Assembly (NCBI GenBank): GCA_028819005.1
Contig: JAPPMP010000037.1
Span: forward strand, 1-39,845
Source: Acidimicrobiaceae bacterium
Lineage (GTDB): Bacteria; Actinomycetota; Acidimicrobiia; Acidimicrobiales; Aldehydirespiratoraceae
Direction: 5' to 3'
DNA: 39,845 bases
This document shows, in pieces, positions 23,753-25,862 of the stretch. A program made the position numbers and the translations under genes. The number at the start of each line of letters is the position of its first letter. Positions within the stretch are counted from its first letter, which is position 1. The notes under the pieces were generated by a model. The model was not told the origin of the DNA, made no database searches, and saw nothing but the letters and a program-made list of their open reading frames with translations.

Positions 23753-24214
23753 GTGTCAAAGTTGCTGTTTCCTCCGGCCGTGCGAGCCGGCGCTTTGGCT
23801 TGTCTGGTTGTTGCCGCACCAGCCGCGGTGATCGGTGCGAGCCTCTCCGACGGCGGCGAGGCCAATCAGTCGAACTGGGTGTATCTGACGCTGTCGGCGA
23901 TTGTGGCGGCCTACCTCTTGGGCGGCGCCGCAGCCGGGTGGGTTGCCAGTTCGGGGCGCGTTGTCGGCTCCGGGCGCAACCGGAGCCCGGAAAATCCTCG
24001 GCTTTCAAACGATGCGCCGATGATCAACGGCGCCGCCGCAACGACCGTCGCGTTCGCGGTCGTGCAGTCCGTCGCTGCGATTCTTCGCATAGCCGGCGGC
24101 GAAGGAGTCAACCCGTTGGCGTTGGTCTTCAATGCTCTGCTAGCCGCGGCAATCGGGACTGTCGGCGGCGGGATTGGCGCGTGCCTTGCCAATCGCGCCA
24201 GAGTCAACCGGTGA
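23753..24214 (+). CDS. Four-helix membrane protein, unknown function
   Basis: 153 residues from a GTG. Hydrophobic segments lie at about residues 9-30, 42-66, 93-112 and 122-145. A polar loop with SGRVVGSGRNRSPENPR sits between helices 2 and 3. The layout, a duplicated two-helix hairpin rich in Gly and Ala, resembles small integral proteins of the TIGR04086 kind, but I cannot assign it. It diverges from trpD with 74 bp between starts and lies 46 bp upstream of the DegT-fold gene. Confidence 0.7.
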   Translation: MSKLLFPPAVRAGALACLVVAAPAAVIGASLSDGGEANQSNWVYLTLSAIVAAYLLGGAAAGWVASSGRVVGSGRNRSPENPRLSNDAPMINGAAATTVAFAVVQSVAAILRIAGGEGVNPLALVFNALLAAAIGTVGGGIGACLANRARVNR

Positions 24215-24260: not shown

Positions 24261-25451
24261 ATGAAACTCCCAGTTTCGGGCGCCGTTCACGACGAACGCG
24301 AGATCGAAGCAGTCGTGGCCGTGCTGCGCTCATCGACGCTCGACATCGGCGAGAACGTCTTCGAGTTCGAGCGCAGGACCGCATCGCTGTTGTCCAAACA
24401 ACACGGGATCATGGTCAACAGCGGATCGTCGGCTCTGCGAATTGCCGTGGATCTGCTGCAACTCGAACGGGGTGACGAGATCATCACCTCGCCGCTCACC
24501 TTCTCGACCGACATAGCCACCATGGTGCAGTCGGGTCTGGTGCCGGTGTTCGTCGACGTCACGCCTGACACCTACCAGATCGACCACACCAAGATCGAAG
24601 CCATGATCGGGCCTCGGACCAAGGCGATCCTCACCCCGAATCTGTGCGGCAACTGCCCTGATTGGGACGCGATCCGGGCCATCGCCGACGCCCGCGGCCT
24701 GAAGGTGGTGGAGGATTCCTGTGACGTGCTCGACTCCTGGCAGCGGGGTGAGCGCACCGGCGCCCGAGCCGACATCGCGGTCACGAGTTTCGCCCGCAGC
24801 CATGCGATGACCGCCGGCGGCGCTGGTGGGATGGTGGGCGTCGACGACCCGGATCTCTTCGACCTCGGACTGGAGTTGCGACGCTGGGGCCGGCGCTCTG
24901 AGCCGTACCTGTACGGTTCGCGCAAGGGCCGACAGGATCGATTCGGGTATCTCGCCGACGGCACGCCGTACGACATGATCTTCACCTTCGACTCGATCGG
25001 CTACAACTTCGAGCCGACAGAGATCAGCGCTGCCTATGGCCTGGTCCAGTTGGACAAGCTCGATGGTTTCAATCAGCAGCGTCGCGACAACTGGCGGCGG
25101 CTCGACGACTTCCTGGCGACATGCGACGGCGTCTCCAGTGGTCGCACCACACCCGAGACGGACACAACCTGGATGCGCTTCTGCTTCACCATCGATGACG
25201 ACCTGGGCATCGACCGAAGCGAAGTCCAAGAACAGCTCGAAGCGCGCGGGGTGACAACGAGGATGGTGTGGACCGGCAATATTCTGCGCCAGAAGGGTTT
25301 CGCCGGGATCGAGCACCGCGCTCCCGCTGAAGGGCTGCCGAATTGCGACTACATCATGGACAACGCGGTGTCGCTGCCGGTCCACCACGGCCTGAACGCG
25401 GACCACATCGGTTTCATGTGCGAACAGCTCGACGCGGTGCTCGGCTCTTGA
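24261..25451 (+). CDS. DegT/DnrJ-fold PMP-type sugar 3-dehydratase-like protein
   Basis: 396 residues with a strong AGGAAAGGG site before the ATG. The fold is that of DegT/DnrJ/EryC1/StrS aminotransferases: MVNSGSSALRIAV, EDSCDVLDSW (cofactor-nitrogen Asp), TSFARSHAMTAGGAGGMV. At the position of the Schiff-base lysine stands His181, as in PMP-dependent 3-dehydratases such as E1 (AscC/RfbH) and ColD. The C-terminal half also tracks E1 (SIGYNFEPTEISAAYGLVQLDKL, RMVWTGNILRQKGFAGIEHR). E1 uses a four-Cys [2Fe-2S] loop; here that loop (~212-225) reads SEPYLYGSRKGRQD without Cys. It therefore probably dehydrates a nucleotide-activated 4-keto-6-deoxy sugar without an iron-sulfur cluster. No sugar-pathway partners lie nearby. 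Confidence 0.85.
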   Translation: MKLPVSGAVHDEREIEAVVAVLRSSTLDIGENVFEFERRTASLLSKQHGIMVNSGSSALRIAVDLLQLERGDEIITSPLTFSTDIATMVQSGLVPVFVDVTPDTYQIDHTKIEAMIGPRTKAILTPNLCGNCPDWDAIRAIADARGLKVVEDSCDVLDSWQRGERTGARADIAVTSFARSHAMTAGGAGGMVGVDDPDLFDLGLELRRWGRRSEPYLYGSRKGRQDRFGYLADGTPYDMIFTFDSIGYNFEPTEISAAYGLVQLDKLDGFNQQRRDNWRRLDDFLATCDGVSSGRTTPETDTTWMRFCFTIDDDLGIDRSEVQEQLEARGVTTRMVWTGNILRQKGFAGIEHRAPAEGLPNCDYIMDNAVSLPVHHGLNADHIGFMCEQLDAVLGS

Positions 25452-25490: not shown

Positions 25491-25862
25491 GTGTGACGGG
25501 GAGCCGGTCGGATGGCCGCGGCGCAGTTCGCTGCGTTGAGGAAGGTCGGGACTCCGCAGGGAAGGGTGCTGGCTTGCGCCAGTCGAGGCGACTCGCAGGA
25601 AAGTGCCACAGAAAACAAACCGCCTCAGAGGTTCCCTCACCGGAACCACAGGGGTAAGGGTGAAAAGGTGCGGTAAGAGCGCACCAGCATCCCGGGCGAC
25701 CGGGGTGGCTAGGTAAACCCCACCCGGAGCAAGGCCATGCAGGGAGAGGGCGTCCCGTCCGCAGACACTCCCGGGTAGGCCGCAAAGATGGATGGTCATC
25801 CACGGAGCCGGCAATTCGGCTCCCGGACAGAATCCCGCCTACAGGCCGACTCCCCGTCACAC
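25491..25862 (+). ncRNA. rnpB: RNase P RNA, bacterial type A
   Basis: Catalytic RNA that trims the 5' leader of pre-tRNAs with RnpA. The ends form a perfect 12-bp P1 helix: GTGTGACGGGGA at 25491-25502 pairs with TCCCCGTCACAC at 25851-25862. Conserved core blocks appear in order: GAGGAAGGTCGGGACTCC (CR-I), ACAGAAAACAAACCGCC, GGTAAGGGTGAAAAGGTGCGG, TAAGAGCGCACC, GTAAACCCCACCCGGAGCAA, CCCGGGTAGGCCGC, and GACAGAATCCCGCCTACAGG at the 3' side. Length is about 372 nt, as expected. In CR-I it reads GAAGGTCGGGA where E. coli has GAAAGTCCGGG. It sits between the DegT-fold gene and a membrane protein/zinc-ribbon pair. Confidence 0.97.

Follow-up and report, generated by a model that had tools for sequence, protein, structure and literature searches.

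Evidence for a third lineage of DegT-fold enzymes with a catalytic histidine, beside E1/SpnQ and ColD

What reaction might be catalysed by a DegT-fold protein that carries a histidine at the position of the PLP-binding lysine and lacks cysteine in the loop that bears most of the iron–sulfur ligands of E1? The question is raised by one gene of the window, by which we mean the whole 39,845-nucleotide stretch of DNA that was analysed. The open reading frame begins with ATG, and its reality was confirmed. Its product falls within the DegT_DnrJ_EryC1 superfamily (Pfam PF01041, 269 bits against a cut-off of 19.8; 7.8e-80) and is the sole full-score DegT protein of its genome. The top NCBIfam match is RfbH (E1), at 275 bits below the model cut-off of 423, and by this equivalog score the protein is not an E1. 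Ranked by sequence, the nearest solved relatives are E1 (3bcx, 4e-57), the Lys transaminase 7b0d (4e-40) and ColD (6e-38). The features on which the analysis turns are as follows.

24261..25451, + strand: gene for a 396-residue DegT-fold, His-type PLP/PMP enzyme (open reading frame, Pfam and AlphaFold model)
24714..24716, + strand: codon of Asp152, predicted partner of the cofactor pyridine nitrogen (invariant in the A3 and A4 alignments; role taken from the DegT family)
24720..24722, + strand: codon of Cys154, in the column of the E1 cluster ligand Cys193 (alignment; also Cys in ColD)
24801..24803, + strand: codon of His181, at the PLP-lysine position (E1 His220; alignment)
24873..24980, + strand: residues 205–240, the loop bearing three cluster cysteines in E1, here with no Cys, an RRWGRRSE signature and low model confidence (alignment and AlphaFold model)

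A first-pass annotation of this DNA had placed His181 at the PLP-lysine position, and the alignments bear this out. The residue aligns with the catalytic His220 of E1, and its column is His in all 51 aligned proteins (49 family members and two E1s), whereas it is Lys in 9/9 Lys aminotransferases of the tree set; the Schiff-base lysine of the Lys-type sugar aminotransferases is thus replaced. The same annotation had held that a lysine elsewhere in the cofactor site would overturn its reading. The single fully invariant Lys of the family, K46, precedes the NSGSS phosphate-binding stretch, away from the cofactor aldimine position, and a search of the family alignment for any other invariant Lys found none. 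The claim that the four-cysteine loop of E1 is here devoid of Cys stood, with one correction: residues 205–240 hold no Cys in any of 38 family members, as against three to four in 14/14 E1/SpnQ-type proteins, but the E1 ligands do not all lie in one loop, with C251, C253 and C261 inside it and the fourth, C193, outside. The window protein lacks Cys at the three loop columns, leaving the four-Cys [2Fe-2S] motif incomplete, and retains Cys154 (kept in 36/38 family members) in the C193 column. By alignment, Cys154 is non-diagnostic for an E1-type cluster because ColD carries the same Cys. A His at the lysine position together with a predicted absence of the cluster is the combination seen in ColD. 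The second His of the HH motif of E1 and ColD is absent, being A, S, I or V in the family.

An AlphaFold model built from 40 family sequences (mean pLDDT 88, with residues 209–215 and 239–247 below 50) is consistent with the E1-like body proposed earlier. Its top PDB match is E1 (VIA Z 47.8, 2.2 Å over 373 residues, 32% aligned identity), followed by the best Lys aminotransferase at 45.6 and ColD at 44.7. Matches of this fold span Z 41–48, and the fold alone cannot decide function because all the scores are close.

A maximum-likelihood tree with nine Lys aminotransferases as the outgroup placed the His proteins on one side, apart from those aminotransferases (100/97). Within the His clade there are three groups: E1 with SpnQ-like proteins (100/100), ColD (100/98), and the lineage of the window protein (100/100), which therefore lies in neither of the other two clades. 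On sequence, we place the window protein in a third lineage beside E1/SpnQ and ColD and not on a step between them, and the intermediate class proposed in the first-pass annotation gives way to this arrangement. E1 and ColD are mutual sisters on the tree (95/85), a pairing that the AU test does not make decisive: it rejected neither a grouping of the window's lineage with E1 (p 0.23) nor an exclusive link with ColD (p 0.08). Five residues, N131, W209, R211, R334 and G339, are common to all three His lineages and absent from the aminotransferases. A search of the available literature found nothing on this third lineage. One further protein, encoded on the Solidesulfovibrio magneticus plasmid pDMC1 (L174:2941-4146), combines the DegT fold and the catalytic His with Cys at the C251, C253 and C261 columns and Ala at C193; it branches apart from E1, from ColD and from the lineage of the window protein, as a single sequence on a long branch. 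This protein hints that the iron–sulfur cluster may be ancestral and may have been lost twice.

The third lineage includes a sister sub-branch, grouped with the window family at 100/100, whose gene context is informative. Plasmids of the Alphaproteobacteria Leisingera, Roseibium/Labrenzia, Palleronia, Sinorhizobium and Ensifer encode proteins 44–46% identical to that of the window, with the same His and, in the four aligned, no loop Cys. In the Leisingera, Roseibium and Palleronia records the sister gene, X, directly follows rfbF (glucose-1-phosphate cytidylyltransferase) and rfbG (CDP-glucose 4,6-dehydratase), a locus of the kind in which E1 is expected; in these three, rfbG has no E1/rfbH neighbour, and within 12 kb there is no annotated E3-type reductase. 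A tblastn search recovered the same rfbF–rfbG–X order in S. meliloti, S. terangae and Ensifer. Six such loci (L163, L164, L165, L166, L201 and L202) have a cluster-free protein in the slot of E1; after X, a homologous SAM-methyltransferase gene is found in 4/6 and an NAD(P)-dependent oxidoreductase homologue in 6/6. For comparison, an Azospirillum plasmid carries the usual rfbF–rfbG–rfbH with a true E1, and as positive controls the true E1 genes of the window's own order adjoin an rfbG-like gene and ColD-clade genes adjoin gmd. Because of the gene order, the sister branch is a putative cluster-free CDP-4-keto-6-deoxyglucose 3-dehydratase, with CDP-4-keto-6-deoxyglucose very likely its substrate. 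The earlier suggestion of the role of E1 performed with ColD-like chemistry thus gains backing for this sub-branch. The idea that its members are E1s stripped of their cysteines was rejected, since forcing them into E1 gave p 2e-6 in the AU test.

The window sub-branch differs from both the CDP-locus branch and E1 at positions that include D84 (E1 T123), N127 (H166), A178 (Y217), R208 (D246), E214 and W337 (F377). One of these positions can be marked on the window as follows.

24792..24794, + strand: codon of Ala178, in the E1 Tyr217 column (Ala in 37/38 of the window sub-branch; Tyr in the CDP-locus sub-branch and E1)

Most of these residues are inferred to line the cofactor or substrate site because they are adjacent to known DegT active-site motifs. 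Because several conserved residues differ, the window sub-branch could carry out a chemistry different from that of E1 and the CDP-locus branch.

Relatives at 47–97% identity occur in 26 of 198 sampled genomes of the same order, several with a second paralogue. One contig carries two paralogues of the family close together (L093 and L051, 65% and 50% identical to that of the window). Two further matches in the order (G004 and G007, ~37% identity) are true E1s. A scan of named genomes yielded 282 candidate loci, and the best 80 of the 282, which were retained, come mainly from Acidimicrobiia, with additional Streptomycetaceae, Frankia-like, Myxococcota and other proteobacterial members. Compared with a 97%-identical copy from a sponge MAG, the window gene has dS 0.37 and dN 0.012, and compared with a 93%-identical copy, dS 0.71 and dN 0.037; a dN/dS of about 0.03–0.05 indicates strong purifying selection. 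In the same two comparisons the protein is better kept than the adjoining trpD product (97% versus 89% and 93% versus 83%). The gene product is presumably a constrained, active enzyme.

As had been noted from the sequence, sugar-pathway genes do not flank the window gene and rnpB does. The RNase P RNA (class A, 232 bits; 25500–25857, + strand) lies directly 3′ of it, an adjacency kept in both close relatives checked (L066 and L113), which share the order trpD, small protein, gene, rnpB, and not kept in four 71–74% relatives scanned. The place beside rnpB is stable yet uninformative on function. The small protein between trpD and the gene (23753–24214, + strand; 153 residues) is membrane-like by composition and has no Pfam match; at 63–70% in the two nearest relatives, it is less conserved than the His-type gene itself. 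No metabolic partner genes adjoin the window copy, and elsewhere in its genome the relative of the SDR partner described below reaches only 43% (contig C5), with no recognisable pathway, while the amidohydrolase partner was looked for and not found.

Other members of the window sub-branch sit in operons. No sugar-nucleotide genes adjoin them in the loci read, save that some Streptomycetaceae copies have a single nucleotidyltransferase-like gene nearby. The 64 operon partners scanned include 19 SDR, nine Amidohydro_2, five MarR and three PhyH proteins and two acyl-CoA dehydrogenases, and none of the 25 most frequent partner families is a dedicated sugar-nucleotide family, nine weak Epimerase matches reflecting the SDR fold only. 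Close relatives (70–73%) have operons of the form gene–SDR–SDR–Gfo/Idh/MocA–SDR. Two of the Amidohydro_2 partners are L060:7282-8142 and L088:11226-12428; the nearest solved structures of the latter are PtmU3 (9e-29) and DitZ (7e-24), a likeness that could indicate CoA-ester or terpenoid-like metabolism. A universal supply of NDP-4-keto-6-deoxysugar was rejected, as gmd, rmlB and rfbG are each missing from some carriers, in genomes that are themselves incomplete: four carriers lack rmlB (G118, G026, G051 and G093), rfbG exceeded the cut-off among carriers in G113 only, and no 4,6-dehydratase type was found in every one of these incomplete carrier genomes. CDP-glucose 4,6-dehydratase (TIGR02622), expected at an E1 locus, exceeded the cut-off in one of the 28 genomes searched, which is not that of the window. 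Gene context and the pocket changes somewhat disfavour the CDP- or GDP-sugar substrate envisaged in the first-pass annotation, as far as the window sub-branch is concerned.

We consider the best reading, with a probability of roughly 0.6, to be that the window protein is a third-lineage His-type PLP/PMP dehydratase working without a cluster, in the style of ColD and driven by glutamate. Sequence, fold, tree position, gene order and selection are what the analysis shows directly; the steps that follow, taken over from related enzymes and the E1/ColD mechanism as reviewed (PMC8987622), and the substrates of both sub-branches are inferred. With no lysine at the site, PLP would be bound non-covalently, and glutamate would convert it to PMP, which would form a ketimine with the substrate ketone. 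His181 would then take the C4′ proton, with departure of the β-hydroxyl as water. Because there is no cluster to pass electrons, the resulting enamine/imine would be hydrolysed to the deoxygenated ketone, ammonia and PLP, and neither an iron–sulfur cluster nor a reductase partner would be used. The window sub-branch would act on a different β-hydroxy-ketone, which may not be a sugar nucleotide and whose supply and further conversion would fall to SDR-, Gfo/Idh/MocA- and amidohydrolase-type partners. A tentative and more specific proposal, which we would put at somewhat under even odds, is that the sub-branch deoxygenates a free ketone (a ketosugar, cyclitol or other ring ketone) by this ColD-style, cluster-free, glutamate-driven route, in a small-molecule pathway with those three partner types, while its sister does the job of E1 on CDP-sugars without iron–sulfur or reductase.

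Weighing against the favoured reading are the missing second His, the aminotransferase-like length of the loop after His181, the changed conserved residues and the want of metabolic neighbours at the window copy, and other readings have to be set beside it. It is unlikely that the protein is a functional equivalent of ColD, making GDP-4-keto-3,6-dideoxymannose from the GDP-4-keto-6-deoxymannose of a Gmd encoded elsewhere in the genome. The top structural matches include ColD, which also has no cluster, and gmd exceeded the cut-off in 26 of the 28 genomes searched, including that of the window (G000:C30); but GDP-fucose-type synthesis accounts for gmd lying beside a second epimerase-family gene, a 73% identical copy of the gene occurs in G077 without gmd above the cut-off (in a genome 90% complete), and the window family lies outside the ColD clade and, unlike the genes of that clade, adjoins neither gmd nor a ColC-like gene at the loci read. 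Similarly doubtful is a conventional aminotransferase of sugars or cyclitols, relying on a different lysine or on none. Public records label these proteins DegT/DnrJ/EryC1/StrS aminotransferases, the loop after His181 has the length found in Lys aminotransferases, and SpnQ, also a His-type enzyme, can transaminate when its reductase is absent (PMC8987622). Against this stand the grouping of all nine Lys aminotransferases, each with Lys at that position, on their own side of the tree, the lack of any invariant lysine but K46, and a His that is invariant over deep divergence; the label in the public records is probably wrong for these proteins.

The partner types (SDR, Amidohydro_2, acyl-CoA dehydrogenase, PhyH and Gfo/Idh/MocA) and the changed residues of the pocket region would also suit a different PLP/PMP chemistry acting on something other than a sugar, such as elimination or epimerisation within natural-product or carbon-ring metabolism, yet we consider this improbable. 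Across the order, the small amidohydrolase co-occurs in 25/26 carriers versus 42/172 non-carriers and the SDR in 21/26 versus 19/172, figures that would favour such a reaction but are confounded by kinship and genome size, and the sister branch sits in a sugar-nucleotide locus, with the function-assigned His members being NDP-sugar 3-dehydratases. Least probable by far is an E1 without its cluster that is degenerating or has lost its function. Such a protein might well have E1 as its nearest PDB sequence and fold and occupy an orphan site beside rnpB, but the low dN/dS and the better conservation than trpD speak against decay, the lineage is old (100/100), and in the same order E1s are encoded by genes of their own. 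An E1-derived pseudogene was rejected on the dN/dS and the tree.

The cluster-free, glutamate-driven dehydratase that we favour would thus join C-3 deoxygenases that have been regarded as two solutions, E1/SpnQ with an iron–sulfur cluster and a reductase, and ColD without. An old, apparently cluster-free third lineage with one branch in the CDP-sugar slot of E1 opens to direct test the question whether glutamate by itself suffices for the reaction of E1, and bears on the number of times that the cluster arose or disappeared. The window branch, with its changed pocket-region residues and non-sugar neighbours, offers a lead to PMP-dependent deoxygenation beyond nucleotide-sugar chemistry. With E1 (RfbH/AscC/DdhC) and SpnQ the window protein shares the catalytic His, the W-G-R and GN..RQ signatures and the best sequence and fold match, and its sister branch occupies the same rfbF–rfbG slot; unlike E1, it lacks the C251, C253 and C261 cysteines and the second His, has Ala for Tyr217 and an N terminus ~30 residues shorter, and falls in a separate clade. 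ColD (GDP-4-keto-6-deoxymannose 3-dehydratase) resembles it in the catalytic His, the lack of a cluster, a similar length and a Cys at the E1 C193 column, and differs in clade, in pocket-region residues (at about 28–30% identity), in its second His and in its gmd or ColC-like neighbour. The DegT/DnrJ/EryC1/StrS aminotransferases (ArnB, perosamine synthase and 7b0d) have the same fold, PLP-phosphate site (NSGSSAL) and active-site loop length, whereas the window protein has His for their Schiff-base lysine and lies off their side of the tree (100/97).
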